This document shows positions 36,710 to 58,584 of a stretch of DNA of 64,000 nucleotides, piece by piece. Source of the DNA: Microbacterium invictum (GTDB lineage Bacteria; Actinomycetota; Actinomycetes; Actinomycetales; Microbacteriaceae). The stretch is from positions 2,976,001 to 3,040,000 of the forward strand of contig NZ_CP139779.1 in assembly GCF_034421375.1 (NCBI RefSeq), given 5' to 3'. Numbering within the stretch: the stretch's first letter is position 1; every line of letters starts with the position of its first letter. The notes below the pieces were generated by a model. It made no database searches. It saw only the letters and a program-made list of their open reading frames with translations, and was not told the DNA's origin. Made by a program: the position numbers and the translations under genes.

Positions 36710-37606
36710 GTGTTCCCTATGGATTCACGCGTCGCCTTGGTCACCGGAGCATCCTCGGGAATCGGAGAGGCCACCGTCCTCGAACTGATCCGCCGCGGTT
36801 TCGTCGTCTACGCGGGGGCGCGGCGGGTGGAGCGGATGGCGCACCTCGCCGACCGCGGTGCCCGGGTCATCCACCTCGACGTCACCGACGACGCGTCGAT
36901 GGCGGCCGCCGTCACCGGCATCCTGAATGATCAGGGTCGTATCGACGTGCTCGTCAACAACGCCGGATACGGGTCGTACGGCGCTGTCGAAGACGTGCCG
37001 ATCGACGAGGCACGCCGCCAGTTCGAGGTGAACATCTTCGGGCTCGCCCGGCTCACCCAGCTGGTGCTGCCGACGATGCGACGGCAGCGGCGCGGCACGA
37101 TCGTCAACATCTCCTCGATCGGCGGCCGCATCTACGAGCCGCTAGGGGCCTGGTACCACGCCACGAAGTACGCCGTCGAGGGGCTCAGCAACTCGCTGCG
37201 CGTCGAGCTCGCGCCCCACGGGGTGCGGGTGGTGCTCATCCGGCCCGGCGCGATCCGTACCGAGTGGAACGAGATCTCGCGGCGGAGCGCTCTGGAGGTC
37301 TCGGGCGAGACCGCGTACGGCGCGCAGGCACATGCACTCGTGCGGGCGCTGACCGCAGCCGACACCGAGTCGGCGGCGCCCGGACCGCAGGTGGTCGCGG
37401 ATGCGATCGGACAGGCCGTGGATGCTGCGAAGCCGCGGATCCGCTACACCGTGCCGCTCGCGGCGAAGGCGATCGTGTTCGCCCGGTGGCTGCTGCCCGA
37501 CCGGGTGTTCGACGCCGCGGTGCAGCGCGTGTTCGGCGTCACCGCCGCCGATCGGCTGGCCGCGGAGGAGTCGGCCGCCGGCGCGCGGGTGGAAAGCGTG
37601 GGTTGA
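36710..37606 (+). CDS. SDR-family oxidoreductase
   Basis: The classical-type short-chain dehydrogenase of 298 residues has the nucleotide-binding TGASSGIGEA, LDVTDD, NNAGYGSYG, the catalytic Ser in VNISSIGGR and the Y-x-x-x-K in WYHATKYAVEG. The C-terminal ~70 residues resemble the longer classical members that act on steroids, retinoids or lipids. GTG 36710 has AGGAG 11 nt upstream; ATG 36719 is the alternative. A short out-of-frame ORF with a strong GGAGGAG site overlaps the start. It is monocistronic and precedes the FAH operon on the same strand, but a separate promoter follows it. Confidence 0.88.
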   Translation: MFPMDSRVALVTGASSGIGEATVLELIRRGFVVYAGARRVERMAHLADRGARVIHLDVTDDASMAAAVTGILNDQGRIDVLVNNAGYGSYGAVEDVPIDEARRQFEVNIFGLARLTQLVLPTMRRQRRGTIVNISSIGGRIYEPLGAWYHATKYAVEGLSNSLRVELAPHGVRVVLIRPGAIRTEWNEISRRSALEVSGETAYGAQAHALVRALTAADTESAAPGPQVVADAIGQAVDAAKPRIRYTVPLAAKAIVFARWLLPDRVFDAAVQRVFGVTAADRLAAEESAAGARVESVG

Positions 37607-37620
37607 CGCGGGCCCGCGTC

Positions 37621-37668
37621 ATTCCGATATTTGGAAACTGGTATCGGAGAATGGAATAGCCCTACACT
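37621..37668 (+). promoter_or_regulatory. IclR-type operator and leaderless promoter of the FAH-SDR operon
   Basis: TCCGATA (37623-37629) and TATCGGA (37642-37648) form a perfect 7-bp-arm dyad with a 12-bp spacer. Within it lies TTCC-N7-GGAA (37622-37636), a form seen at IclR sites. A TACACT -10 box at 37663-37668 ends 6 nt before the ATG at 37675. The dyad covers the -35 region, suited to either repression or activation. Confidence 0.55.
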
Positions 37669-37674
37669 CGAGCC

Positions 37675-38535
37675 ATGAAGCTCGCGCGACTCGGTCCCGT
37701 CGGTTCGGAGAGGCCGGTCGTCTTCGTCCGCGACGAGGAGTACGTCGATGTCTCCGATGTGACGGCGGATGTCGACGAGCGCTTCTTCGCGGGCGACGGC
37801 ATCGCCCGCCTGCGGCCCGTCGTGGCGGATCGTGTCTCGCGCGGCGCGGTGCACCGTCTCGCGGGTGAGCGCATCGGCGCACCGTTCGCGCGGCCCCACC
37901 AGATCATCTGCGTCGGACTGAACTTCTCCGACCACGCCGCCGAGACCGGCCAGGCGGTTCCCGCCGAGCCCATCCTCTTCACCAAGTCGCCGAACACCCT
38001 CGTCGGACCGAACGACGACGTGCGGATGCCGCGGGGCGGCGAGAAGCTCGACTGGGAGGTCGAGCTCGGCATCGTCATCGGCACCCGTGCCAGCTACCTC
38101 GCCAGCCCCGAGGACGCACGCCGGCACATCGCCGGGTTCACCGTCGTCAACGACGTCAGCGAGCGGGCGTTCCAGATGGAGCGCGGCGGCCAGTGGCTGA
38201 AGGGCAAATCGGCCGAGACCTTCAACCCCGCCGGTCCGTGGCTCGTCACGCCGGACGAGATCCCCGACGTCCGGAGCCTCGGCATGCGCCTGGACGTCAA
38301 CGGCACGCGTCGTCAGGACGGGTCGACCGCGACGATGATCTTCGATCCGTTCTTCCTCGTGCACTACATCAGCCAGTTCCTCGTGCTCGAGCCCGGCGAC
38401 CTCATCAACACCGGCACCCCGCCCGGGGTGGGCATGGGCCACACGCCACCGGTGTGGCTGCGCCCGGGAGACGTGATGGACGTCGCGATCGACCGGCTCG
38501 GCGCGCAGCGCCAGACCGTGGTGGGTCCGCGATGA
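37675..38535 (+). CDS. Fumarylacetoacetate hydrolase (FAH) family protein
   Basis: The 286-residue enzyme has the FAH fold and its metal-site signature: ICVGLNFSDHAAETGQAVP, then LFTKSPNTLVGPND, the E-x-E in LDWEVELGIVIG with the later VNDVSERAFQ, and the C-terminal INTGTPPGVGMG. Family members hydrolyse C-C bonds of 2,4-diketo acids or isomerise homoprotocatechuate products. Translation overlap (ATGA) with an SDR gene makes 2,4-diketo-3-deoxy sugar-acid hydrolysis a strong candidate, as in the L-fucose and L-rhamnose oxidative routes. The ATG is leaderless behind TACACT, under an IclR-like dyad. Homogentisate or other aromatic pathways are less likely because no such genes are near. Confidence 0.9.
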   Translation: MKLARLGPVGSERPVVFVRDEEYVDVSDVTADVDERFFAGDGIARLRPVVADRVSRGAVHRLAGERIGAPFARPHQIICVGLNFSDHAAETGQAVPAEPILFTKSPNTLVGPNDDVRMPRGGEKLDWEVELGIVIGTRASYLASPEDARRHIAGFTVVNDVSERAFQMERGGQWLKGKSAETFNPAGPWLVTPDEIPDVRSLGMRLDVNGTRRQDGSTATMIFDPFFLVHYISQFLVLEPGDLINTGTPPGVGMGHTPPVWLRPGDVMDVAIDRLGAQRQTVVGPR

Positions 38536-39206
38536 GACGCGCCGTGGTCACCGGCGCGGCGCAGGGTCTGGGAGCCGCGACCGCGGAGAGGCTGAGCGGC
38601 GACGGCGTCGAGGTCATCCGGGTCGACCGCGCCGGCGACGTCGACGAGCGCGTGGATGTCACCGACGAGGCCGCCGTCGCCGACCTCGCGCGACGGATCG
38701 GCGCCGTCGACATCCTCATCAATTCCGCCGGGATCGTGGGACCGAACCTCCCCCTCGTGGAGACGGCACTCGGCGCGTGGCGGGCGACCTTCGAGGTCAA
38801 CGTCCTCGGGGTCGTGTCGATGATGCGCGCCTTCGTCCCCGGCATGGTGTCGGGCGGCTGGGGCCGCGTGGTGAACTTCGCGAGCATGGCGGGGAAGGAC
38901 GGCAACCCGAATCTCGCCGCGTACTCGGCATCCAAGGCCGCTGTGATCGCCCTGACGAAGTCGGCGGGGAAGGAGCTCGCGACCACCGGCGTCCTCGTCA
39001 ATGCCATCGCCCCCGCGGTCATCGCCACGCCGATGAACGCCACGACCGCCCCCGACGTCCTCGCCCACATCACCAGCCTCATCCCGATGAAGCGCGTCGG
39101 CGAGCCGCAGGAGGTCGCCGAACTCGTGGCGTGGCTCGCATCCGACCGGGTGAGCTTCTCGACCGGCGCCGTCTACGACATCAGCGGCGGCCGTGCCGTC
39201 TACTGA
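38532..39206 (+). CDS. SDR-family dehydrogenase, partner of the FAH hydrolase
   Basis: The 224-residue classical SDR has TGAAQGLGAAT for NAD binding, INSAGIVGPN, the catalytic Ser in NFASMAGKDGN and Y-x-x-x-K in AYSASKAAVIA, with the usual C-terminal SGGRAVY. The ATG overlaps the FAH stop by 4 bp. In the known L-fuconate and L-rhamnonate routes an SDR oxidises the 2-keto-3-deoxy acid at C4 to the substrate of the FAH hydrolase, so this order of genes fits that chemistry; the actual sugar is not shown by the sequence. It converges with iclR and overlaps it by 7 bp. Confidence 0.9.
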   Translation: MRRAVVTGAAQGLGAATAERLSGDGVEVIRVDRAGDVDERVDVTDEAAVADLARRIGAVDILINSAGIVGPNLPLVETALGAWRATFEVNVLGVVSMMRAFVPGMVSGGWGRVVNFASMAGKDGNPNLAAYSASKAAVIALTKSAGKELATTGVLVNAIAPAVIATPMNATTAPDVLAHITSLIPMKRVGEPQEVAELVAWLASDRVSFSTGAVYDISGGRAVY

Positions 39207-40000
39207 CCGGACTCGCCCTCGCCGCCGCGCGGGCCGCTGCCGCCGGCGACGATGGCCTGGATCCTCGGCACGGCCGAGACGAGGTCTGCCAGCGACATGC
39301 GGAACGCCAGGGCGCTGACGCTCACGGCGCCCACCGGTGCCGCCCCGTCGACCGAGGGGAGAGCCACCGCGACGCAGGTGATGCCGAGCTCGTTCTCCTG
39401 ATCGTCGACGGCGTAGCCCCGCTCCCGGGTGAGCTCCAGTTCTCGCCACAGAGCTCCGACATCGGTGATGGTGCGGGGTGTCCGGGCGTCCAGGGGGCCG
39501 TCCCCGACGATCGCGCGGAGGTCGGCTTCGCTCTGCACCCGGCCGGTCAGCAAGAGCTTTCCGACCGCCGTGCGCGAGGCGGGGTTCCGTCCGCCGACGA
39601 CCGAGGTGAGGCGCACCGCCCCGGCGGGCGGGTCGGTCTTGGCCCGGTAGACGACCTCCGCCCCATCGAGGACGGCATAGTGGGCCGTCTCACCGAAGGT
39701 CGCCGTCAGCTCGTCGAGCACGGGACGGACCCTGGCGACATCCGGTCGCTCCGCGGCGGTCTGGAACGCGATGCGGAGGAACTCATCGCCGATCGCGTAG
39801 ACGCCGCGCTCGATCTGCTCGACGAATCCCGCGCGGCGGAGCGCCGCGAGCGCCCGGTGGACGGTCGGCTTGGGGCTGGACACCTCGTGACTCAGCTGGT
39901 CCAGGGTGGCGCCACGGGGGTGGGAGCCCAGGGCCGAGAGCACGGCCAGAACGCGGTCGCTGCCGACGAGTCGCGGCTCGTCACCCGCGACCTCGGTCAT
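39200..40000 (-). CDS. IclR-family transcriptional regulator
   Basis: The 266-residue protein has an N-terminal winged HTH (DRVLAVLSALGSHPRGATLD, then VSSPKPTVHRALAALRRAGF) and the IclR effector domain (RVRPVLDELTATFGETAHYA, ASRTAVGKLLLTGR, GYAVDDQENELGITCVAVAL), all family hallmarks. GGAGGGGGAG precedes the ATG and a TACGAT -10 (40032-40027) lies upstream, so it has its own promoter although it follows the glycosidase operon. Its likely target is the convergent FAH-SDR operon through the dyad at 37623-37648. The ligand may be a keto acid from that pathway. Confidence 0.92.
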   Translation of the reverse strand: MTEVAGDEPRLVGSDRVLAVLSALGSHPRGATLDQLSHEVSSPKPTVHRALAALRRAGFVEQIERGVYAIGDEFLRIAFQTAAERPDVARVRPVLDELTATFGETAHYAVLDGAEVVYRAKTDPPAGAVRLTSVVGGRNPASRTAVGKLLLTGRVQSEADLRAIVGDGPLDARTPRTITDVGALWRELELTRERGYAVDDQENELGITCVAVALPSVDGAAPVGAVSVSALAFRMSLADLVSAVPRIQAIVAGGSGPRGGEGESGQ

Positions 40001-40061: not shown

Positions 40062-47435
<7,374 letters not shown>

Positions 47436-47479
47436 GGTGACTTCCTGGGGGGTGCGGGGCTTTCGGGGTGGGAGGGGGA

Positions 47480-49447
47480 TCAGGATGCCGGTGCGACGGC
47501 GAGGAGCCACGAGGTCGCGTCGCCGGACGCAGGGAGGGCGACTCCGACATCGACGAGTTCGCGACCGTCGGCCGACGACGTCTCGCCCGTGGCGAGATCG
47601 GTCACGCGGTAGCGCGTCTCAGGGTCGAGGGCGCGAAGGCGCACGCGCGCGGGCGGCCGCCCGCCCGAGAGCACGAAGGCGGCGACGATGTGACGGTCCT
47701 CCTGGTCGGAGGAGAGCTGGAACGCCGGTGCCCGCTCACCGAGGCCGCCGCGTTCGGGCGTCGGCGAGAGCGGGCGGAGCACCCCGTCGCGCACGAGCGG
47801 CGCGATCTCGGTGCGGAACAGACGCACGTGCTCATCCAGCACATCGCGCAGCGCCGGGGCGAGCTCGGTCAGTCGGAGACTGACACCGAAGCGGTGCAGC
47901 ATCGCGGCCCGCAGCATCGTGCGGAACTCCGCCGGCTCGACCTCCGCCCATGCCCGCTGCTGCGGCGGGTAGGCCCCACGCCACTGCGACTGCGACCAGT
48001 GCAGGATGGCGAGCGGCGGCAGCATGCGCGACGCACCGTGCAGCACCTCGAGGTGATGCTCGGTGTAGTCGGGATCGCTCAGGAAGAACGCGTGCACGTG
48101 ACGGGCGAGTCCGAGGTCGATGCGCAGACCTCCCGACGAGCAGGCCTCCAGGAAGACGTCGGGGTACCTCCCGCGCACCTCGTCGAGAACCCGGTAGAGC
48201 CCCTCGTAGTGGCGGAACAGCCCGTCGCCGGCACCGTGCCCGTGATCGGTGCGGGTGCATCCGGAATCGGGATCGACGTTGAAGTCCAGCTTGATCCACC
48301 GCGCACCGACCCGCTCGATGAGATCGCCGAGCGACGACCGGAGGTGCGCCCGCCCCGCGGGGGAGCCGAGACAGACGTAGCCCAGGAATCCCGGATCCTC
48401 GGGATCGAGCGACACCGTCATCCGACGGTACGAAGGATCGGGCTGCGCGTTCCCGTCGGCAGCGGCGAGGAGATCGGGGTGCTCCGCCCGCACCCGCGCG
48501 CTGCGGCCCACCGCCTCGGCCTCGATCCAGATGCCCGGGAGCACGCCCGCCGCCCGGATCGCGTCGCCGAGCGCGGGCAGCCCCGAGGGGAAGCGCTCGG
48601 TGTTGACATCCGTCCAGTCCCCGCGCTGCTCCTGCCAGTCGCTGGCGGCGTCGGACGCGCCGAACCATCCCGCGTCGACGGTCGCGACCTCCAGTCCGAG
48701 CGCGGCCGCCTCGACCGCGTTGCGGGAGATGACCTCCTCGGTCACCTCGGCGTCCTCGTAGGGCCACCAGTGGTTCCACTCGGTGGGCACGGTGTCGGCG
48801 AAGGTCGACCGGGCGAGCCAGTGATCGCGCACCGCGCGCTGCAGCTCGACGGCGGCGGCGTCCAGATCCGCTGCGGCCGCGATGACGACCGACGGGGCGG
48901 TGACCTGTTCGCCAGGGCGGAGCGTCACCGAGAAGCGCCACGGCGAGATGCCGGCGGTGACAGACCCTCCCGAGAGGGCGGCGATGTGCCAGTTCCCGCT
49001 CCACGCCGGGCAGATGATCACCGCGGCGCGGTCATCCTCCCGCTCGATGCCGAGCCACGGCGCCGAGCCATGCGAGGATCGTCCTGACCGGACATCGAGG
49101 AAAAGGTCGTGACGCGTGGTGCCGTGGCGGGGTCGGAACTCATCCCCCCACGCCGAGCGATACCAGTTCGTCCGCCAGTGGGTGGGGTCCGCGCCCATGT
49201 CGAGGGCGAGGGCGCAGGAATCCATGCGCGTCACGGTGACCGGCGCGTCGCCGTCGTTGCGGAGCTCGAGGCGCACCTCCCAGACCCCGCCCGACCCGAC
49301 GCGCACGAGCGACCAGTCCCGCGTGAGACCGTCGCGATCGGCGACCACCAGCCCGCGCTCCAGCCGGGCGATCACCTGCCCGTGCAGGCGGAGCTCGGCG
49401 CCGTCGCCGACGAGTTCGGCAGCTGCCGGTGAATCTGGGGTCATCAT
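47480..49447 (-). CDS. Glycoside hydrolase family 36 alpha-galactosidase (clan GH-D)
   Basis: The ~655-residue enzyme has an N-terminal beta-supersandwich (FSVTLRPGEQVTAPSVVIAA), a TIM barrel with FNHWWPY-like EWNHWWPYEDAEVTEE, the nucleophile Asp ~388 in WIKLDFNVDPDSG and acid/base Asp ~458 in FLSDPDYTEHH, plus the LEACSSGGLRIDLG motif and a C-terminal beta domain, so alpha-galactosidase activity is expected. There is no signal peptide. Two adjacent ATGs (49447, 49444) follow TGAGGAC; the second has the better spacing. It is the first gene of the glycosidase operon, and a palindrome with an embedded TATGAT -10 lies 24 bp upstream. Confidence 0.93.
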   Translation of the reverse strand: MMTPDSPAAAELVGDGAELRLHGQVIARLERGLVVADRDGLTRDWSLVRVGSGGVWEVRLELRNDGDAPVTVTRMDSCALALDMGADPTHWRTNWYRSAWGDEFRPRHGTTRHDLFLDVRSGRSSHGSAPWLGIEREDDRAAVIICPAWSGNWHIAALSGGSVTAGISPWRFSVTLRPGEQVTAPSVVIAAAADLDAAAVELQRAVRDHWLARSTFADTVPTEWNHWWPYEDAEVTEEVISRNAVEAAALGLEVATVDAGWFGASDAASDWQEQRGDWTDVNTERFPSGLPALGDAIRAAGVLPGIWIEAEAVGRSARVRAEHPDLLAAADGNAQPDPSYRRMTVSLDPEDPGFLGYVCLGSPAGRAHLRSSLGDLIERVGARWIKLDFNVDPDSGCTRTDHGHGAGDGLFRHYEGLYRVLDEVRGRYPDVFLEACSSGGLRIDLGLARHVHAFFLSDPDYTEHHLEVLHGASRMLPPLAILHWSQSQWRGAYPPQQRAWAEVEPAEFRTMLRAAMLHRFGVSLRLTELAPALRDVLDEHVRLFRTEIAPLVRDGVLRPLSPTPERGGLGERAPAFQLSSDQEDRHIVAAFVLSGGRPPARVRLRALDPETRYRVTDLATGETSSADGRELVDVGVALPASGDATSWLLAVAPAS

Positions 49448-49470: not shown

Positions 49471-49485
49471 TTAGATCATATCTAA
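49471..49485 (-). promoter_or_regulatory. Operator/-10 box of the glycosidase operon (site 1 of 3)
   Basis: The perfect 15-bp palindrome TTAGAT-CAT-ATCTAA lies in an AT-rich patch. Read on the minus strand it contains TATGATCTAA, with TATGAT as a near-consensus -10 for the GH36-GH38-GH2 operon. The same TATGAT-S-TAA sequence occurs at 54682-54696 and 54757-54771. It may also affect the divergent Gfo/Idh-ThuA unit. Confidence 0.65.
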
Positions 49486-49570
49486 TGCGACACACCGCGC
49501 GTCAAGAGAGACCTCGAGGCGGGAAGAACCTGCTTTGGTACGATCAATCCAACTCACGGACGGAGCACCT

Positions 49571-50662
49571 GTGACCTCTTCTCCCCTGTCCCCCGCACCT
49601 CTTCGCGTCGGGATCGTCGGCACCGGATACGCCGGGACCACCGCCGGCGAGGCCTATCGCGCGATCCCCGGCGTGGAGGTCGTCGCCGTCGCCGGCAAGG
49701 AGGCCGACCGCCTGGCAGCCCTCGCCGCCGCCTGGGACGTCGCCGACGTCTATCCCGACTGGGAGGCGATCGTCGCCCGGGACGACATCGACATCGTCAG
49801 CGTCGCAACCCCCAACGCGCTGCACGACGTGATCTCGATCGCCGCGCTGCGCTCGGGCAAGCACGTGTTCTGCGAGAAGCCGCTGGCGATCACATCCGAG
49901 GCCGCGCGGGCGATGGTCGCTGCCGCGACGGAGAACGACCGGGTGCTCGAGGTGGCGTTCAACCACCGCCGCCGGGCCGACGTGCAGTGGGCCCATCGCT
50001 ACCTGGAGGAGACGGGTGTGGGGCGCATCTACCACGCCCGGGCATCCTGGAAGCGGCGTTCGGGCATCCCCGGCCTGACATCGTGGTTCACCTCGCGGGA
50101 TCTGGCTGGGGGCGGCGCCCTGATCGACCTCGGCCCGCACGTCATCGACTCCCTGCTGTATCTCATGGGCGAGCCCCGGGTGGTCGCCGTGAGCGCGGTC
50201 GCGCACGGCGAGCTGGGACGCGCCGGTTACGGGGCGATGGACAACCGCGAGCAGATGGCCGGATCGGGCCGCTTCGAGGTCGAGGACCTCGTGTCGGCGC
50301 TGCTGCGGCTGGAGAACGGCGCCAGCGTCGCGCTGGAGATCAGCTGGGCCGGCCACACGGCCGACGACGAGGACATCTCGATCGAGCTCCTCGGCGTCGA
50401 CGGCGGTCTTCGCCTCTTCGTCCCGCGTTACAAGCCCCAGGACACGCTCTGGGTCTACCGGCAGGACGCCGGCGCCCCGGTCACGATGCGCCCCGCGGTG
50501 ACCGTCCCCGGGGGCGAGCACGGCCTGGTCATCACGGAGTTCATCGACGTGGTCCGCTCCGGCGACTGGACCGGGCACCACGGCGAGTTCGCCCTCCACC
50601 GCACCGAGATCATCGATGCCTGCTACCGATCCGCCGCCGAAGGGAAAGAGGTGACGCTGTGA
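49571..50662 (+). CDS. Gfo/Idh/MocA-family oxidoreductase
   Basis: The 363-residue NAD(P)-dependent sugar oxidoreductase has an N-terminal Rossmann fold ([20 protein letters not shown]), the substrate/cofactor motif [15 protein letters not shown] with the conserved Lys, and the C-terminal alpha/beta domain with [20 protein letters not shown], where Asp and His form the usual active-site pair. GTG 49571 follows ACGGAGC; a TACGAT -10 lies at 49539-49544. The stop overlaps the ThuA start (GTGA). Pairing with a ThuA protein resembles ThuA/ThuB, where a sugar is oxidised to a 3-keto derivative, but substrate and direction are not known. Confidence 0.92.
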
Positions 50663-51393
50663 CGATCCGCGTGACGGTGTGGAACGAGAACCGGCACGAG
50701 CGCCGAGAAGGCACCCGGCCGGCCGAGCTGTACCCCGAGGGCATCCACGGCGCGATCGCCGCGGGTCTTCGCACCCATCTCGGCACCGACGTCGAGGTCA
50801 CCACCGCGACGATGGAGCAGCCCGAGCACGGCCTCCCCGCCGAGGTGGTCGAAGCCACCGACGTGATGCTCTGGTGGGGCCACGAGGATCACCCGGGCGT
50901 GGACGACGCCGTGGTCGATCGGGTCCATCAGGCGGTGCTCGGGGGAATGGGACTCCTCGTCCTGCACTCGGGTCACTACTCGAAGATCTTCCGGCGTCTG
51001 ATGGGGACGACCTGCTCTCTGCGGTGGCGCAACGACGGCGAGCGCGAGGTCGTGTGGACGGTCGCTCCGCGGCATCCGATCGCCGACGGAATCCCCGACC
51101 CCCTCGTCATCGACGAGCAGGAGATGTACGGCGAGTTCTTCGACATCCCCGTCCCCGAGGAGCTGATCTTCCTCTCCACCTTCTCCGGCGGCGAGGTGTT
51201 CCGCTCGGGAGCGACCTGGACCCGCGGCGCGGGCCGGGTCTTCTACTTCTCCCCCGGCGACCAGGAGTACCCGGTCTACCATCACCCCGACATCCAGCGG
51301 GTGCTGGCCAACGGCGTGCGGTGGGCGGCGCCGGCCGGGCGAGGCCTGCCCCTGGACGCCACCCACCGCCCGCTGGGCTGGTTCAGCGGCTGA
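50659..51393 (+). CDS. ThuA-domain protein
   Basis: The 244-residue protein has a class I glutamine-amidotransferase-like fold in the ThuA (trehalose utilisation) family: [14 protein letters not shown], the [13 protein letters not shown] [37 protein letters not shown], and the C-terminal [20 protein letters not shown] with [15 protein letters not shown]. ThuA proteins act on 3-keto sugars together with Gfo/Idh enzymes. The reading frame overlaps the upstream oxidoreductase stop by 4 bp, so the two are coupled. Its last 11 bp overlap the end of the convergent permease gene. Confidence 0.92.
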
Positions 51394-52225
51394 CACCCAC
51401 CTGCAGGCCCTGCATGATGTAGCGCGAGGCGAAGGCCAGCAGGAGCAGGGGCACGGACGCCGTGACGAACAGCCCCGCAGACACCAGCGGCTGATCGGTG
51501 ACGAATCTCTCGCCGATCGTCGCCAGAGTCGGGGTGAGCAGCCACATCGACTGGTCCCGGATGAGGATGATCGCGAAGATCAGCTCGTTCCAGACCCCCA
51601 GGAACTGCAGCACCGCGAGGGTGGCGATGCCGCTGGAGCCCATCGGCAGCACGATCGACCACAGGGTCCGGAAGAGCCCTGCGCCGTCGATGCGCGCCGC
51701 CTCCATGACCTCGTCGGGGATGCCGCGGAAGGTCAGCGTCAGGAAGAACGTCGCGAACGGCAGCCCCGTGGCGACGTAGACGAGGATCAGCCCCGCGTAG
51801 CCGCCGAGACCCAGACGGGCGAGCAGCAGGTAGATCGGGATGATCAGCACCGGGCCGGGGATGAGCATCACCGACACGAAGGTCGCGGTGATGTACTTCG
51901 CTCCCGGCACCGGCAGCTTCGCCAGGGCATGCCCGGCGATCGTGGCAAGGATGAGCACGATCACCACCGACACCGTCGTGACGAACATGCTGTTGAGGAA
52001 CGCCTGGCCGAGGCCGTAGGAATTGGCCAGGGTGAGGTAGTTCGACAGTGTCCACTCGCCGGGGAGGCCGAACGGATCACGCAGGTAGTCGGCGTTCGGC
52101 CGGAGCGAGGTGATCACCACGAACCACAGCGGGTAGAGGATCGACACCGCCACCAGGCACAGGGCGATGAAGATCGGCCACCTGGTGCGCCTGCTGCTGA
52201 GGCGCGAGCTCACCACATCCGTCAT
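51383..52225 (-). CDS. Carbohydrate ABC transporter permease (MalG/CUT1 type)
   Basis: The 280-residue inner-membrane permease has six helices and the EAA coupling loop [20 protein letters not shown], which docks on the ATPase. The N-terminal [20 protein letters not shown] and the [20 protein letters not shown] helix match the second CUT1 permease. The start overlaps the stop of the first permease by one base (TGATG), behind GGAGGAGGA. No ATPase gene is in the operon; CUT1 systems in actinobacteria often share one MsiK-type ATPase encoded elsewhere. Confidence 0.93.
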
Positions 52226-53178
52226 CAGTCCTCCTCCTGCAGTCGGAACACGCGGTTCTGGATCAGCGTGAGGATGCCGATGAACAGGAACAGCACCACC
52301 GCGAGCGCCGCACCCGAGCCGAGATTGCTGCTGGAGAAGGCGCGGAGGTAGACGAGGTAGTCGATCGTGGTGGTCTCGAAGCCCGGCCCCCCCGCGGTCA
52401 TGACGAAGACGAAGCCGAACAACGACGTGAAGGTGTAGAGCACGTTGATGATGAAGACGAAGCCGAGGACCCGGCGGATGTTGGGAAGGGTGATGTACCA
52501 CAGCCGCTTCCACCACCCCGCGCCGTCGATGGCGGCCGCCTCGAACACCGCCGGATTGATCGATGTGAGCCCCGCCAGCAGCAGGAGCGACTGGTAGCCG
52601 AAGCCCGACCACACGAGGGCCAGGATGATCACGGAGATCGCCAGGGTGCCGTCGGTGAAGAACTGCACCGGCTCGACGCCGAACAGTGCCAGCGCCTGGT
52701 TGACGCCGCCGTAGTACCCGAAGGCGTTGCGGAACATGATGCCGATGACCGCCACCGACAGCACGTTCGGCAGGAAGAAGATCAGCCGGAAGAACCGCCA
52801 CCCCCGCACGCGTTCGAACAGCAGCACCGAGACGATCAGCGCGACGAAGATGACCAGCGGCACCGAGATGAGGAACTTCAGGTTGTTCAGGAACACCTGG
52901 TGGACGACGGGGTCGGTGAGGAGCGCCGTGTAGTTGGCGAACCAGTTCCACTCGAAGGTGAGCCCGTTGGTCCGGGTGAACGAGATGAAGACCGCGAACG
53001 CGACGGGGAAGGCCATGAACCCGACCACGACGAGGAAGGCGGGGAGCACCGACGCGAGCCCCACGAGGCGGTCGCGGCGGCGCAGACCCCCGGGCTTGCG
53101 GTGCTTCTGGGCGGTGGCCTCGATGATGGGCGCCTCGTCCGAGGCGCCCATCAGCGAGCCTTCGAAGGCGGAGGTCAC
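52225..53178 (-). CDS. Carbohydrate ABC transporter permease (MalF/CUT1 type)
   Basis: The 317-residue permease has a charged N-terminal tail (~1-40), six helices (LASVLPAFLVVVGFMAFPVA first) and the EAA loop EAAAIDGAGWWKRLWYITLP. The periplasm-side loops and length match the first permease of CUT1 sugar importers. The GTG start overlaps the binding-protein stop by 4 bp (GTGA). With the lipoprotein binding protein and the second permease it forms an oligosaccharide importer lacking its own ATPase. Expression should follow the operator at 54682-54696. Confidence 0.93.
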   Translation of the reverse strand: MTSAFEGSLMGASDEAPIIEATAQKHRKPGGLRRRDRLVGLASVLPAFLVVVGFMAFPVAFAVFISFTRTNGLTFEWNWFANYTALLTDPVVHQVFLNNLKFLISVPLVIFVALIVSVLLFERVRGWRFFRLIFFLPNVLSVAVIGIMFRNAFGYYGGVNQALALFGVEPVQFFTDGTLAISVIILALVWSGFGYQSLLLLAGLTSINPAVFEAAAIDGAGWWKRLWYITLPNIRRVLGFVFIINVLYTFTSLFGFVFVMTAGGPGFETTTIDYLVYLRAFSSSNLGSGAALAVVLFLFIGILTLIQNRVFRLQEED

Positions 53179-54503
53179 TGGTTGGCGATCTCCGTGGCGT
53201 ACGAATCCGCCAGCTGGCGCACCGCGTCCTCCGGGGTGATGGTGCCGAGGAAGACACCGGCGTTCACGCGGTAGAACAGGTCGATCGTCGCCTGCGGCAT
53301 CACCGAGTCGAAGGCGAAGACGACGCCGTCGGTGGCCTCCTGGAGCTGCGCGAACTCCTGCTGCAGCAACGGGTTCTCGATGAGCGACGGGTCGGCGTCA
53401 CTGTGGTTGGACGCCTGGGTCTGGTACAGCTCCACGAACCGGTCCTGGTTCTCGGGTTCGGCGAGGAACTGCAGGAACTCGCCCGCGAGCTCCTTCTGGT
53501 CGGAGTAGTTCGTGATCGAGATCGAGATCTCTGGCCCGCCCGCGGCCATGTTCGGGTACTCCGCATCCTCGAACATGGGGATGAAGAACACGCTCACGTC
53601 GTCGCCGAAGGCCTCGTACATGCCGTTGTTCTCCCAGCTTCCGACGATGTAGTACGCACCGTCGCCCCCGACGAAGCCCGCCGTGGACTCGCCGTTGGAC
53701 ACCTGGCCGGCGTCGGGGTTGGCGAGCCCCGACGCGCCGAGCTCGGCGAACGCCTCGTAGGCCTTGACCATCGCCGGGTCGTCGACGGGGATCTCACCGG
53801 CGTACATCTGGGTGAAGGCCGACTCGCCCAGTTCGCCGCCCACGAGGGCGCTGATGATCCACGCGCCGACGTAGCCTTCGAGGTTGGCCATCCAGAACGC
53901 GTTGTAGTCGGTGTTCTCGACGATCTGCTCGCCGTTGGCCATGAGCTCCTCCCACGACGTGGGCGGATCGGCGGGGTCGAGCCCGGCCTCTTCGAGCATC
54001 TCGTTGTTCGCGAACACCGTGAAGAGGTTCCCGGCGCCGTACGGCATGCCGAGGATGGCCCCCTCGGGGTCGAAGTCCTCGCGGTTGACGTTGAACCCCG
54101 CCATGGAGTCGATGATCTCGGGAGTCAGATACGGCTCGAGGTCTTCGAAGAACTCCGCGAACGAGATGGTCGGGCCGCCGGCGTACTGGATCCGGATGTC
54201 CGGTCCGTCGCCCGCGATCGAGGCGGCCTGGAACTGCGCCCCGTTCGAGGAGATGTCGCCGCCCTGCTGCACCACGGTGACGGTCAGCCCCGGGTTCTGC
54301 TCTTCGAACTCGGCGGCCATCTGATCGATGAACGAGTTCTCCATGTCGGCCTCACCGCTCTCGAGGGTGCGGCCGAGGATTCCGGTGTCCCAGATGACCA
54401 GCTCCTGGTCACCGGACTCACCGCCCCCCGCGGGGGCGCACGCCGCCAGCGAGACGACGAGCCCTGAGGCGAGAACGAGCCCGCCGAGCGCGCGTGTGTT
54501 CAT
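53175..54503 (-). CDS. Extracellular sugar-binding lipoprotein of ABC importer
   Basis: The 442-residue family-1 solute-binding protein starts with a lipoprotein signal (LGGLVLASGLVVSLAAC lipobox), so it is tethered outside the membrane. Typical segments are ELVIWDTGILGRTLESGEAD, EFEEQNPGLTVTVVQQGGD, GAILGMPYGAGNLFTVFANN, TSWEELMANGEQI and GGDGAYYIVGSWENNGMYEA. The acidic, Asn/Gln-rich mature chain suits oligosaccharide binding. The ATG at 54503 is preceded by AAGGAAGGA. It leads the importer operon; the specificity is presumably the mannose/galactose-containing glycan handled by the neighbouring glycosidases. Confidence 0.93.
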   Translation of the reverse strand: MNTRALGGLVLASGLVVSLAACAPAGGGESGDQELVIWDTGILGRTLESGEADMENSFIDQMAAEFEEQNPGLTVTVVQQGGDISSNGAQFQAASIAGDGPDIRIQYAGGPTISFAEFFEDLEPYLTPEIIDSMAGFNVNREDFDPEGAILGMPYGAGNLFTVFANNEMLEEAGLDPADPPTSWEELMANGEQIVENTDYNAFWMANLEGYVGAWIISALVGGELGESAFTQMYAGEIPVDDPAMVKAYEAFAELGASGLANPDAGQVSNGESTAGFVGGDGAYYIVGSWENNGMYEAFGDDVSVFFIPMFEDAEYPNMAAGGPEISISITNYSDQKELAGEFLQFLAEPENQDRFVELYQTQASNHSDADPSLIENPLLQQEFAQLQEATDGVVFAFDSVMPQATIDLFYRVNAGVFLGTITPEDAVRQLADSYATEIANQ

Positions 54504-54681
54504 TGCTGTGTCCTTCCTTGGATGCAACGCGTGAGCGGCAGACGCCGCTCACGGGAGGAGCGCGCGGAAGAGGGCGACGGCGAACATGCAGCGGCGGCAC
54601 GGGCCCCACTGCTCGGGCGTTGCGACATCATCGTCCCATCCACATCGATCGTCCGCGGGCCGTTGGCGCCGCGTGACAGGA

Positions 54682-54696
54682 TTACATCATACGTGA
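54682..54696 (-). promoter_or_regulatory. Operator/-10 box of the sugar importer operon (site 2 of 3)
   Basis: TTACAT-CAT-ACGTGA is the imperfect member of the palindrome family. On the minus strand it reads TCACG-TATGATGTAA, and TATGAT (54691-54686) serves as the -10 for the binding-protein gene. It is identical over ten bases to the site facing the dehydratase operon. Confidence 0.6.
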
Positions 54697-54756
54697 ACGG
54701 TGAAATCCACGAATTGTTGCGGGGAAGTTATCTGATTGCTTGCGTTGGTACCGGCT

Positions 54757-54771
54757 TTACATATGATGTAA
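54757..54771 (+). promoter_or_regulatory. Operator/-10 box of the dehydratase operon (site 3 of 3)
   Basis: The perfect palindrome TTACAT-ATG-ATGTAA contains the plus-strand -10 TATGAT at 54762-54767. A -35 candidate TTGCGT lies at 54740-54745 (16-bp spacer). A repressor bound here would directly exclude RNA polymerase. The downstream FCD-type GntR protein is the natural candidate. Confidence 0.65.
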
Positions 54772-54857: not shown

Positions 54858-54893
54858 ATGAACATCACCCTCGCGAACGCGGACACGCGATGA
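54858..54893 (+). CDS. Possible 11-codon leader ORF overlapping the dehydratase start
   Basis: The ORF ATG...TGA encodes MNITLANADTR, and its stop overlaps the dehydratase start codon (ATGA). The first nine bases ATGAACATC are repeated exactly at the dehydratase start 32 bp downstream. The dehydratase ATG itself has no recognisable ribosome site, so translation could be coupled to this leader. The ribosome site for the leader (GAAGG) is also weak, so it could be chance or a slippage duplication. Confidence 0.35.
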   Translation: MNITLANADTR

Positions 54894-56104
54894 ACATCGA
54901 CGCCGTGGACTTCTTCTACGCCGCCATGCCCGAGGTCACCCTCGAGGCCGATGGCAGCCAGGATGCGCTCCTAGTCCGCGTGCGTGCCGGCGACCACGAG
55001 GGCTGGGGTGAGTGCGAGGCCTCCCCGCTGACCTCCATCGCCGCCTTCGTCACCCCTCGCTCGCACGGTGTCTGCCAGCCTGTCGCTGCCAGCGTGATCG
55101 GCGAGCGCCTCGACGGCCCCGCCGACATCCGGCGCATCGCCGCACTGGTCGAGCGCAACAGCATGGATCTCCTCCAGGCCGCACACACCTGGTCGGGCAT
55201 CGAGATCGCGCTGTGGGATCTGCTCGGACGTGCGCGGGACGAACCGGTGTGGCGGATGCTCGGTTACGCCACGACGGAGGGGAAACTCCCCTATGCCTCC
55301 CTCCTTTTCGGTGCCGATCCTCAGGCGACGAGGGAACGTGCGAGGGATCAGGTGGCCGCCGGGTACCGCGCGGTCAAGTTCGGCTGGGGCTCCTTCGGCA
55401 CCGGCGACCCCCGAATCGATGCCGATCACCTCGTGGCGGCGCGGGAGGGGCTCGGGGACGACGGCATCCTGCTCGTCGACGCCGGCCAGATCTGGGGCGA
55501 CGATGCCGCGCGGGCATCCCGGCGTCTCGCCGCCCTGCAGGAGGCACGGGCCACATGGCTCGAGGAGCCATTCGTTCCCCACGCCTTCGCGGCGTACGCC
55601 GAGCTCGCCGCGGCGGCCGGCAGCGTCGGGATCGCGGGGGGCGAAGGTGCGCACACCGTCCACATGGCCACGAACCTCATCGATTACGGCCGGGTCCGCT
55701 TCGTCCAGATCGATGCGGCCCGCATCGGCGGGATCGGCCCGGCGTGGGATGTCGCTCAGCACGCGGTGGCGAAGGGGGTCACCTTCGTCAACCACACCTT
55801 CACCTCCCACCTCGCCCTCTCCGCCTCGCTCCAGCCCTTCGCAGGACTGGCCGACCATCGGATCGCCGAGTTCCCGGTCGAGCCGAAGGCGGTCGCGCTG
55901 GCGATCTCGACGACGCGGCTGCATCCCGATCACAACGGCGAGATCCGCGCCCCCGACGCGCCGGGTCTCGGCGTTGACGTGGACCTGGCGGCGCTGACCC
56001 CCTACCTGCGAGACGTCGAGATCCTCATCGACGGCGAACGCGCCTTCCGAAGCCCCACGGCCGAAGGCACCACACCTAAAGTGAAGGCAACGACGAAGGC
56101 GTGA
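54890..56104 (+). CDS. Enolase-superfamily (mandelate racemase/muconate lactonizing) sugar-acid dehydratase-like protein
   Basis: The 404-residue protein has the capping domain (MNIDAVDFFYAAMPEVTLEA) and barrel with metal ligands Asp ~197 (LLVDAGQIW), Glu ~225 (TWLEEPFVP) and Glu ~252 (IAGGEGAHT). Acid/base residues are Asp ~275 (VQIDAARIGG) and His ~302 (VNHTFTSHL) for the His-Asp dyad, and Lys ~163 in YRAVKFGWGSFG, where only one Lys of the usual K-x-K is present. The family abstracts the alpha-proton of a sugar acid; dehydration to a 2-keto-3-deoxy acid is the likely reaction. It is cotranscribed with GntR, aldose epimerase and SDR genes. Confidence 0.85.
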   Translation: MNIDAVDFFYAAMPEVTLEADGSQDALLVRVRAGDHEGWGECEASPLTSIAAFVTPRSHGVCQPVAASVIGERLDGPADIRRIAALVERNSMDLLQAAHTWSGIEIALWDLLGRARDEPVWRMLGYATTEGKLPYASLLFGADPQATRERARDQVAAGYRAVKFGWGSFGTGDPRIDADHLVAAREGLGDDGILLVDAGQIWGDDAARASRRLAALQEARATWLEEPFVPHAFAAYAELAAAAGSVGIAGGEGAHTVHMATNLIDYGRVRFVQIDAARIGGIGPAWDVAQHAVAKGVTFVNHTFTSHLALSASLQPFAGLADHRIAEFPVEPKAVALAISTTRLHPDHNGEIRAPDAPGLGVDVDLAALTPYLRDVEILIDGERAFRSPTAEGTTPKVKATTKA

Positions 56105-56108
56105 GGAG

Positions 56109-56891
56109 ATGACGGTGGCCGAGACCCGCGACCCCGAGCACGGCTCGGGGTACACGATGCGCGGGCTGCAGGGCCGCGTGATCGAGGGGATCGGTCGCGC
56201 CATCATCCGAGGCGACTACGCCCCCGGCGAGCTCGTTCCCAAAGAGGCGGAGCTCACCGAGGCGTACGGCGTCAGCAGGACCTCGGTCCGCGAGGCGATG
56301 CGGGTGCTCGCGGCCAAGGGGCTGGTCGACATCCGGCAGAAGATCGGCACGCGCGTGCGGCGGACCGAGCAGTGGAACGTCTTCGACGCCGACATCCTGC
56401 GCTGGCACAGCGACGAGGGGCGCGGCGAGAGCATCCTCCGCGACCTCGTCGAGGTGCGCCAGATCATGGAACCCCAGGCCGCGCGGCTCGCGGCGGGGCG
56501 CGCGAGCATGGAGGATCTGCGCAAGCTCGAGACGGCCTTGAGCGCGATGCGCGCCGCCACCACCGATCGCGAGAGCTACGCGCACGCCGACGTCGATTTC
56601 CACGTCGCCGTCTACGGCGCCTCGCACAACGTCCTGCTGAGGCAGTTCGGAGCGGTCATCGCCGACTTCATGTACCTCAGCTTCAGCGTCCAGCAGCAGA
56701 CGGCGTCGGGCGAGGAGGTGTTCGCCGGCGACGTGGAGCAGCATGCGGCGGTGTTGCACGCGATCCACCGGGGACGCGGCGAACAGGCGGCCGAGGCGAT
56801 GCTCGACGTCGTGCTCGACGGGAAGACCGCTCTGATCCAGGCCCTCAGCGGATCGCGCGGCGACGGATCGCACGGCGACACCGTCACGTGA
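56109..56891 (+). CDS. GntR-family regulator, FCD (FadR-C) subfamily
   Basis: The 260-residue protein has an N-terminal winged HTH (IIRGDYAPGELVPKEAELTE, AYGVSRTSVREAMRVLAAKG) and an all-helical FCD effector domain with metal/ligand residues in YAHADVDFHVAVYGASHN and DVEQHAAVLHAIHRG. FCD regulators sense carboxylic and sugar acids such as galactonate, gluconate and hexuronates, fitting the adjacent dehydratase. GAGGAG directly precedes the ATG at 56109; GTG 56115 has better spacing. It is the best candidate to bind the three TATGATSTAA palindromes in this locus. Its stop overlaps the epimerase start (GTGA). Confidence 0.92.
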   Translation: MTVAETRDPEHGSGYTMRGLQGRVIEGIGRAIIRGDYAPGELVPKEAELTEAYGVSRTSVREAMRVLAAKGLVDIRQKIGTRVRRTEQWNVFDADILRWHSDEGRGESILRDLVEVRQIMEPQAARLAAGRASMEDLRKLETALSAMRAATTDRESYAHADVDFHVAVYGASHNVLLRQFGAVIADFMYLSFSVQQQTASGEEVFAGDVEQHAAVLHAIHRGRGEQAAEAMLDVVLDGKTALIQALSGSRGDGSHGDTVT

Positions 56892-57835
56892 ATCGCCTCA
56901 CCCTCGCCGTGGGCGGCACCCGCGCCCTCGTGCTGCCCGATCACGGCGGTGCGGCCGCCGAACTGACGGTGGACGGCACGTCGGTGCTGGCGCGGACCCC
57001 CTGGGCGGCCGAGGTGCTCGCCGGTCGTGAACCGGCCTCCGATGAGGCGACGTGGGTCGGTCGCTGGACGGGCGGATGGCAGCTGTGCTTCCCGAACGCC
57101 GGCGCCCCCGACCCCGATGCGCGGCCGGCACAGGGCTTCCACGGCGTCGCGTCGCAGGACCGGTGGAGTGTCGGCGACACCGGTGACGCGCACGTCGACC
57201 TGCACTGGGCCGACGAAGCAGGTCTGTCGATCCGGCGCCGGTGGGTCGTGTCCGAGAACACGCTGGCCGCCGTCACCACCGCCCGCAACGGCGGCGAGGC
57301 CTCCCGCCCGATCGGGATCGCCGAGCATCTGATCCTGGGCGGCGAGGTCCTCGCCCCGGTCGTGGACGCCGACGGGATGCTGCGGATCGACGCCTCGGGA
57401 TTGCTCGTCGAACTCGACTACGCGGGCACCCCGACGGGACGGCGGACCGCGTGGCCGGGCGAGGAAGCGTGGCCGGGCGGAAACTGGGCGCGCGTGGACC
57501 GGCGCACACCGGCGCGGGTGGCCGCCCTGCGGCATCCGTCCCCCGGCATCGTCACGGTGACCGGCCCGAGGCTTCGGGCGACCGTGTCATGGGAGGGCCT
57601 CGCGCACGCCCTGCTCTGGGAGGAGATCGGCGCGAGCACGGACGCGCCCTGGAACGGAGCGGTGCACGCCCTCGGCGTCGAACCGACCTCGACGCCGCAC
57701 GGCGCGGGCACCGCCTATCCGGACGGCGCGATCGATCTCGCGCCCGGGCAGAGCATGACGTGGACCACGCGTCTGGAGATCGGGATCACCGACATGGGGG
57801 CCGCCACGCCCGCCGACGAAGGAGGACGAGCATGA
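56888..57835 (+). CDS. Aldose 1-epimerase-like protein (galactose mutarotase fold)
   Basis: The 315-residue protein of the galactose-mutarotase-like fold has the N-terminal GGTRALVLPDHGGAAAEL, WVGRWTGGWQLCFPNAGAP, the active-site His in GFHGVASQDRW, IGIAEHLILGGEVL with a second His, and C-terminal ALLWEEIGASTDAPWNGAVH followed by LGVEPTSTPHGAG, with Glu as the probable general base. It would interconvert sugar anomers in the cytoplasm, supplying the correct anomer to a sugar dehydrogenase. GTG 56888 overlaps the GntR stop, and the stop overlaps the next SDR start (ATGA), so the four genes 54890-58584 form one tight operon. Confidence 0.85.
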   Translation: MNRLTLAVGGTRALVLPDHGGAAAELTVDGTSVLARTPWAAEVLAGREPASDEATWVGRWTGGWQLCFPNAGAPDPDARPAQGFHGVASQDRWSVGDTGDAHVDLHWADEAGLSIRRRWVVSENTLAAVTTARNGGEASRPIGIAEHLILGGEVLAPVVDADGMLRIDASGLLVELDYAGTPTGRRTAWPGEEAWPGGNWARVDRRTPARVAALRHPSPGIVTVTGPRLRATVSWEGLAHALLWEEIGASTDAPWNGAVHALGVEPTSTPHGAGTAYPDGAIDLAPGQSMTWTTRLEIGITDMGAATPADEGGRA

Positions 57836-58584
57836 CCGCAGCACCCGCGGCGAGACCACCGCTCCGCTGCATCGTGACGGGAGCGCGCCACGGGATCGGT
57901 GCCGCGATCGCGGAACGGCTGGCCAGCGGCGGCGACACCGTCGTCGGCATCGACATCGAACCCGGATCCGGCCCGACGAGGATCGTCGCCGCCGACCTCG
58001 CCGATCCCGCCTCGCGTGCGTCGGGCTTCGAGCGAGGGCTGGCCGCCCTCGGCGGGGTGGATGTGCTGGTCAACGCCGCGGGGGTCTTCCGTGAGGGAGG
58101 CGTGCTCACCTCGACACCCGCCGACTGGGCCCCCGTCTGGGCGGTGGATCTCGAGGCGCCCCTCGACCTCATGCGCCTGGCCGCCGCGGTCATGGCACCC
58201 GCCGGTTTCGGCCGCATCGTCAACATCACGAGTGTGCACGCCCGCGTCGGCAGCCGCGAGAGCATCGCCTACGACGTGGCGAAGGCGGGTCTGGAGGCCG
58301 CCACGCGCTCGGCCGCGCTCGACCTCGCCGGGCACGGAGTGCTGGTCAACGCGGTGGCGCCGGGGTTCGTCCGCACCCGCATGAGCATGCTGCCCGACGG
58401 ACGCGACGAGACCGAGACCGACGCGTTCCTCGCCACCTACGTCGAGGGTGGCCGCCTCCCCCTCGGGCGACCGGCCTCGCCCGCCGAGATCGCCGAGTCC
58501 GTGGTCTTCCTCACCGGACGCGGGAACACCTACATCACCGGTCAGGTCCTGACGATCGACGGCGGCCTGACGGCGACGTTCTGA
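57832..58584 (+). CDS. SDR-family dehydrogenase (sugar dehydrogenase candidate)
   Basis: The 250-residue classical SDR has the NAD-binding TGARHGIGAAIAERL, NAAGVFREGG, the catalytic Ser in NITSVHARVGS and Y-x-x-x-K in AYDVAKAGLEA, and the C-terminal YITGQVLTIDGGLTATF shared by NAD-dependent sugar and alcohol dehydrogenases. With the epimerase and dehydratase in the same operon, the simplest role is oxidation of an aldose to its lactone at the head of a non-phosphorylative pathway. The lactonase that would follow is not in the window. Substrate assignment is inference. Confidence 0.9.
   Translation: MTAAPAARPPLRCIVTGARHGIGAAIAERLASGGDTVVGIDIEPGSGPTRIVAADLADPASRASGFERGLAALGGVDVLVNAAGVFREGGVLTSTPADWAPVWAVDLEAPLDLMRLAAAVMAPAGFGRIVNITSVHARVGSRESIAYDVAKAGLEAATRSAALDLAGHGVLVNAVAPGFVRTRMSMLPDGRDETETDAFLATYVEGGRLPLGRPASPAEIAESVVFLTGRGNTYITGQVLTIDGGLTATF

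Follow-up and report, generated by a model that had tools for sequence, protein, structure and literature searches.

The DNA analysed here, a stretch of 64 000 nt of the Microbacterium invictum genome (contig NZ_CP139779.1, positions 2 976 001 to 3 040 000; hereafter the window), carries three copies of one palindromic 15-bp element, each at the promoter of a different operon: a glycosidase operon (GH36-GH38-GH2-propeller), a sugar ABC importer operon and an operon for a dehydratase, a GntR-family regulator and a short-chain dehydrogenase (SDR). From the sequence comparisons presented below we hold, with good confidence, that the elements are operators of that regulator (encoded at 56109-56891), and that this FCD-type GntR protein of the FadR subfamily is autoregulated, covers the -10 box TATGAT of the three operons and is released from the DNA by a sugar acid. 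The three elements and a weaker candidate are as follows.

49471-49485, minus strand: putative operator/-10 element of the glycosidase operon; TTAGATCATATCTAA on the plus strand, TTAGATATGATCTAA on the minus strand; TATGAT at 49480-49475; GH36 start codon at 49447
54682-54696, minus strand: putative operator/-10 element of the importer operon; TTACATCATACGTGA on the plus strand, TCACGTATGATGTAA on the minus strand; TATGAT at 54691-54686
54757-54771, plus strand: putative operator/-10 element of the dehydratase-GntR operon; TTACATATGATGTAA; TATGAT at 54762-54767
49534-49548, plus strand: candidate degenerate fourth site upstream of the Gfo/Idh-ThuA operon; TTTGGTACGATCAAT over a TACGAT -10; weight-matrix score 10.0

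The 15-bp element in the genome and in relatives

The element is a 6-3-6 dyad, TTASRT-CAT-AYSTAA, the centre of which gives TATGAT when read toward the gene. All three 15-mers named in a preliminary description of this DNA were found exactly as written, with TATGAT directed, as claimed there, toward the glycosidase operon (minus strand), the importer (minus strand) and the dehydratase-GntR operon (plus strand). There are indeed three sites at three promoters, but not at 'three divergent promoters', since the intergenic regions that are divergent number two and one of them holds two sites.

When the window was scanned with up to three mismatches, the three sites were the only matches, while 100 shuffled versions gave a mean of 0.03 and none reached the observed count. 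The consensus TTASRTATGATSTAA was also run against the whole 3.53-Mb genome: with at most one mismatch it matched three times, at the three sites and thus all inside one 5.3-kb stretch, and the reversed control pattern did not match at all. With up to three mismatches, there were 13 rows (five of them readings of the three sites) against 10 for the control; such weak matches are thus background. The eight places left over (two or three mismatches), no commoner than the reversed control, were accordingly rejected as further members of the regulon; six of them lay inside a mechanically called open reading frame (ORF) of at least 110 codons, among the seven longest listed.

A weight matrix was built from 41 sites of relatives, leaving out the window and its relative L018 from Microbacterium kunmingense (regulator 99% identical). 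The three sites scored 28.9, 28.7 and 25.3, the next non-overlapping match in the window 10.0, and the best score in 20 random first-order Markov sequences of 64 kb was 13.9. The three remained on top when sites of the same promoter type were removed from the matrix. The 10.0 match is the fourth candidate, possibly lying over the -10 box that serves the Gfo/Idh-ThuA operon; similar sequences are present in L018, L019 and L020, and its score was exceeded in 3 of the 20 random sequences.

The loci of relatives were gathered via the GntR protein. Thirteen came from a named genome collection; one of these (L030) is a remote match and was kept out of the footprint, and L044 and L048, duplicates of L026 and L029, were kept out of the site scan. 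The protein had matches in 13 of 198 genomes of the genus (E ≤ 1e-30) and in 14 of 398 of the family (E ≤ 1e-50); among the genus matches wide stretches were taken only for G145, G097 and G068, the others being too distant or already included. In 16 loci (the window, L018-L028, L046, L047, L053 and L054) importer and dehydratase diverge from each other; nine (L029, L045, L049-L052 and L055-L057) have another layout. Because some loci are close kin (L023/L025, L053/L054), the counts below are not counts of independent events.

With up to three mismatches, the site was found at the importer promoter in all 16 divergent loci and at the dehydratase promoter in 12 of them, the window being counted here and for the glycosidase promoter. 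At the glycosidase promoter it was present in 12 of the 14 loci where the operon's own promoter is in view (the exceptions are L053 and L054), with copies identical to that of the window in L018 and L019 and related sites in 11 more loci. The dehydratase promoter of the other layout had a site in three of nine loci at up to one mismatch and in five of nine at up to three. All 40 matches with up to two mismatches (24 loci scanned) lay upstream of a gene of the locus and were oriented toward it, and 38 of them kept TATGAT exactly, one L020 site and one L050 site being the exceptions. In L050, L052, L055 and L056, sites of the AAAGTANTAYYTTT type stand beside (L050) or replace TTASRTATGATSTAA and keep the GT-N3-AY core: drift in these lineages has affected the motif's outer arms. 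The motif is therefore present upstream of the orthologous operons of relatives; its absence there is what the preliminary description had named as a refutation.

The GntR regulator as the probable binder

The protein encoded at 56109-56891 has an N-terminal GntR winged helix (PF00392, 66.7 bits) and a C-terminal FCD domain (PF07729, 83.3 bits), both above the Pfam cut-off, and is thus a member of the FadR (FCD) subfamily. Its closest solved sequence is DgoR (7c7e, 131.5 bits), the D-galactonate regulator of Escherichia coli, which is linked to an aldonate dehydratase. D161, H165, H212 and R117, which correspond to the DgoR metal ligands D146, H150 and H195 and to R102, were invariant in the 26 orthologues fetched, two of which are duplicates. 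The DgoR pocket residues R179, W181 and T191 are Q197, A199 and D208 here, in a pairwise alignment with gaps nearby; since these three are not kept, an effector other than D-galactonate is quite possible.

Sites of the FadR subfamily mostly have GT and AC cores 3 nt apart, that of DgoR included; their periphery varies, and some members do not conform. Carboxylic acids are among the small ligands of these proteins (PMC4494728). Among the 41 sites of relatives, positions 5-6 were G and T in 87% and 97%, and positions 10-11 were A and T in 97% and 97%, which gives GT-N3-AT. The regulons described by Suvorova et al. 2015 (PMC4494728) resemble the present one in their palindrome with half-site cores 3 nt apart, in double sites within divergons and in the position of the regulator gene inside a regulated operon; they differ from it in the arms, commonly TKGT/ACMA there and TTAS/STAA here. 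Among the papers listed by our literature search none dealt with this regulon, the individual-site tables of Suvorova et al. 2015 falling outside its coverage, so that an earlier listing there is possible.

Sugar-acid regulators of the GntR family in enteric bacteria are reported to be usually repressors relieved by their effector (PMC12288454). DgoR acts as a repressor by binding a pair of inverted repeats that overlap its promoter, and galactonate is its effector (PMC12288454, PMC7674646); galactonate plus a metal ion loosened its binding in assays, although the abstract words the direction differently (PMC7674646). The protein of the window shares with DgoR the order of domains, the Asp-His-His metal ligands and, by prediction, an operator that overlaps the promoter; unlike DgoR, it would have glycosidases and an ABC importer in its regulon, and each promoter would have a single strong site with its centre on the -10.

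The least biased evidence that ties motif to regulator is their genome-wide co-occurrence, which is free of the bias introduced by collecting loci. We scanned 588 genomes for both, with a cut-off of E ≤ 1e-50 for orthologues of the GntR protein. Two or more matches (at most one mismatch, here and below) were found in six genomes, all of which have the orthologue, and in none of the 570 that lack it. At least one match was found in 12 of the 18 orthologue-bearing genomes as compared with 13 of the 570 others (Fisher p = 2.7e-14, genomes treated as independent), and in 10 of those 12 a match lay inside the locus. The genomes with a match and no orthologue were 4 of 193 in the genus draw and 9 of 384 in the family draw, about the rate of reversed-control matches (2 of 198 and 11 of 398 genomes). 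Single matches in G483 and G514 (TTAGATATGACCTAA), with near-identical surroundings and no ORF of at least 120 codons starting within 400 nt downstream, were put down to chance, as was that of G125 (L109), where no orthologue was found at E ≤ 1e-30. Another Microbacterium, G083, has a 53% identical dehydratase and no GntR match at E ≤ 1e-30; its lone motif match, on the same contig, is some 1.8 Mb distant.

Where the genes of the locus are dispersed, the site is found with them. In G502 and G384, both of one genus (g75) that is not the window's, they are spread over several contigs, and on contigs other than that of the regulator the site stands upstream of GH36 (L101, L106), of the propeller gene (L100, L103) and of an operon for an SDR and a FAH-family hydrolase (a dehydrogenase/diketo-acid-hydrolase pair; L102, L104); G384 has it also upstream of a FAD/Fe-S oxidase gene (L105). 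In G580, the propeller gene and a second SDR gene run on after GH2, which is consistent with the lack of a site of their own. Taken together, co-occurrence in the 588 genomes, membership of the FCD/FadR subfamily and a motif with the spacing of that subfamily bear out the earlier choice of this protein as the best candidate regulator.

The hexamer TATGAT is one base off the sigma-70 -10 consensus, and leaderless mRNAs are common in actinobacteria. In L102, L104 and L105 the distance from the site to the ATG codon downstream is 3, 3 and 2 nt, which would fit leaderless mRNAs started from TATGAT. Position, orientation and these three apparently leaderless starts suggest that TATGAT acts as a -10. 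A dimer should be indifferent to the orientation of the central three bases and yet this orientation is constant, which suggests that it is fixed by promoter function.

Going beyond what is directly observed, namely the sites, their uniqueness, conservation, orientation and spacing and their co-occurrence with the GntR gene, we infer that GntR binds the elements, represses rather than activates, and does so over a -10 under the control of an effector. Without ligand, the GntR dimer would sit on the dyad TTASRT-N3-AYSTAA and so keep RNA polymerase off the three promoters, its own included. Breakdown of the glycan would lead to a sugar acid of the pathway, probably the substrate or the product of the enolase-superfamily dehydratase; this acid would bind in the metal-containing FCD pocket and GntR would let go of the DNA.

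Points against and alternative explanations

Several observations weigh against the binding of these sites by GntR, or against their role as repressor-covered promoters. Conservation of the sites within the loci is by itself no proof that GntR is the binder, because the loci were collected via its gene. Six of the 18 orthologue-bearing genomes had no match with at most one mismatch, and in G483 and G514 the match lies outside the locus. No dehydratase-side site with up to three mismatches was found in L026, L046, L053 and L054; L046, L053 and L054 have a dyad with unchanged spacing there that is more degenerate, that of L046 with its centre reversed. The distant orthologues of L052, L055 and L056 go with AAAGTANTAYYTTT-like sites and have a nearly unchanged recognition helix, SRTSVRE. 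One half-site core is AT where AC is expected, in spite of a 3-nt core spacing that matches the subfamily, and the canonical outer boxes TKGT/ACMA are replaced by TTAS-RT/AY-STAA in the main arms, TGGT/ATCA-type arms being seen only at degenerate sites such as that at 49534. The -35 hexamers, read by eye, are weak and unevenly spaced. Lastly, the FAH-SDR operon, which bears the motif in G502 and G384, is without it in the window, where an IclR-family gene adjoins it. Co-variation of helix and motif, which we looked for as proof of binding, was not found, the helix being nearly constant across the orthologues.

The alternative that survives best, to which we give an appreciable chance while thinking it unlikely, is that GntR binds and is not a simple repressor: it would be an activator, or one partner of a co-operative pair with another factor at the divergent region. 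As regards binding by GntR, this overlaps with the explanation that we prefer. All 12 loci in which both divergent sites are present have them at a distance of 74-75 bp, for an intergenic length that ranges from 292 to 451 bp, and a constant distance between sites is described as a mark of co-operative pairs (Suvorova et al., PMC4494728). Moreover, of 17 divergent regions, eight (L021-L025, L027, L047 and L106) have a third element, AATYGTTACC, near the middle, its offset from the importer site being 42; in two more (L053 and L054) it is inverted at offset 58, and in the other seven, among them that of the window, it was not found. The window has AATTGTTG at offset 30; because of that offset (30 and not 42) its AATTGTTGCG was dropped as a version of the relatives' element, and the odds of the fuller scheme given below are slightly lower for it. 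On the other side, an activator would be badly placed on top of the -10, only one strong site is present at the glycosidase promoter, seven of the 17 divergent regions are without the third element, and the fixed spacing may merely reflect back-to-back promoters with common upstream parts. A co-operative double operator that includes a third element may exist, with no decisive result in its favour. Doubtful in our eyes is also a fuller scheme in which operator and -10 would be merged in an orientation dictated by transcription, the divergon pair at 74-75 bp would be co-operative, in some relatives together with AATYGTTACC, and the leader ORF of the importer (see below) would add a second layer of control.

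A lesser probability, low by our estimate, goes to the possibility that the sites belong to another regulator, either one encoded elsewhere or the IclR-family protein of 39200-39997, the gene of which is inside the extended locus and adjoins the FAH-SDR pair. The near constancy of the GntR recognition helix while the outer arms drift in distant orthologues would fit this; the FadR-subfamily spacing of the motif and the confinement of multiple copies to genomes with this GntR protein do not. Furthermore, an IclR protein with at least 38% identity was seen in only one (L056) of 26 loci compared, GntR being in all by construction; these loci reach about 10 kb on each side of the GntR gene and IclR may lie further out.

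It is quite improbable that the elements are promoters only, each an extended -10 box used by some sigma factor and devoid of any operator role. Such a box would account for the placement of TATGAT, for an orientation that follows the gene, for the three apparently leaderless starts and for the weak conservation of the outermost left bases of the dyad (0.41 and 0.87 bits). It would not explain why two parts outside the hexamer, A3 in the left arm (1.6 bits) and TAA in the right arm (1.5-1.7 bits), are conserved like the hexamer itself, why the element (at most one mismatch) is nowhere else in the genome, or why the degenerate site that L046 retains has kept the spacing while its centre is reversed. 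Chance, finally, has next to no probability: short AT-rich motifs do occur singly, as in the 13 genomes without orthologue, but three such matches in a GC-rich window are contradicted by the shuffle control, the genome-wide uniqueness and the conservation across genera, and the initial judgement that they were not fortuitous holds.

Genes of the locus, pathway and significance

The genes placed under the predicted control of GntR and their neighbours are listed below (Pfam assignments unless otherwise stated).

37675-38535: FAH hydrolase, beyond the glycosidase operon (tblastn with the L102 protein, 72% identity)
about 38532-39206: second SDR, beyond the glycosidase operon (tblastn with the L102 protein, 69% identity)
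39200-39997, minus strand: IclR-family gene, adjoining the FAH-SDR pair
40062-41402, minus strand: conserved 446-residue protein, predicted to be propeller-like, encoded at the end of the glycosidase operon; without Pfam, NCBIfam or PDB sequence match
41359-44364, minus strand: GH2 glycosidase (beta-galactosidase type)
44310-47510, minus strand: GH38-type glycosidase (alpha-mannosidase family)
47480-49447, minus strand: GH36-type glycosidase (Melibiase)
49571-50662, plus strand: Gfo/Idh/MocA oxidoreductase
50659-51393, plus strand: ThuA-like protein
51383-52228, minus strand: ABC transporter permease
52225-53178, minus strand: ABC transporter permease
53175-54503, minus strand: ABC transporter substrate-binding protein
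54500-54631, minus strand: leader ORF of 43 codons, MMSQ...GRTQQ; its TGA stop and the start codon of the importer gene overlap as ATGA
54890-56104, plus strand: enolase-superfamily (MR/MLE) protein, probable sugar-acid dehydratase, first in the GntR operon; closest solved sequence 2hzg (503.3 bits)
56109-56891, plus strand: GntR-family regulator carrying an FCD domain; predicted to bind the sites and to regulate its own operon
56888-57838, plus strand: ORF in the dehydratase-GntR operon, no Pfam match; tentatively epimerase-like, on a first reading only
57835-58584, plus strand: SDR of the dehydratase-GntR operon

For the propeller-like protein (40062-41402), 1743 homologues at E ≤ 0.001 were found among 7993 scored, some of them named from Bacteroidota. 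It is predicted to be mostly beta (pLDDT 90.8), with weak fold matches to GH43, GH62 and GH93 enzymes and to sialidases, and is possibly a glycan-active enzyme.

In 13 of 16 loci the stretch from the importer site to the importer gene contains an ORF that begins with ATGATGTC; L020, L026 and L053 are without this string, and L020 has ATGTCGCA alone there. The ORF is long (43-77 codons) in 12 of the 13, L046 having a short one, and in 10 (43-73 codons) its TGA overlaps the start codon of the importer as ATGA; L027 and L106 end differently. Start and frame are thus kept while length varies. Purifying selection on the peptide was considered and rejected because a codon-position test gave no third-position excess in substitutions; for that reason, we make no claim that the peptide sequence matters. 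The ORF is possibly an unconstrained leader coupled to the importer gene.

As to the pathway, the FAH protein of L102 resembles 2,4-didehydro-3-deoxy-L-rhamnonate hydrolase, with a score of 334 bits where the curated threshold is 500. The keto-acid SDR and the FAH hydrolase of the G502/G384 regulon point to a pathway that would end in pyruvate and a hydroxy acid. The non-phosphorylative diketo-hydrolase pathway of L-fucose and L-rhamnose, as reported (PMC11199699), likewise combines a dehydratase, an SDR and a FAH-family protein, the last two being those under this motif in G502 and G384; it differs in that the dehydratase of the window is far nearer to 2hzg than to L-fuconate or L-rhamnonate dehydratases. 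No fucosidase or rhamnosidase was found among the window proteins scanned. Control of the FAH-SDR pair seems to have been rewired between the window and G502/G384, since in these two genomes the pair is headed by the GntR-type motif. In the window, the stretch 37605-39997, with the pair beside the IclR gene, shows by eye a dyad-like sequence, TTCCGATA...TATCGGAGAATGGAA, upstream of the FAH gene.

The proposal that import, deglycosylation and sugar-acid breakdown form a single regulon is largely supported by the shared sites, their conservation and their co-occurrence with GntR. It is a well-supported but ordinary local regulon of the FadR subfamily and, its mode of control being already known, it would inform specialists rather than surprise them. 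To conclude, it provides a testable regulon for the use of glycans and sugar acids in Microbacteriaceae, and would tie a propeller-like family without Pfam match, a 2hzg-type dehydratase and a Gfo/Idh-ThuA pair to one inducer; such a common inducer would help to identify the substrates of these uncharacterised proteins. The motif itself is specific enough to serve as a probe for genome mining, and possibly as a sugar-acid biosensor.

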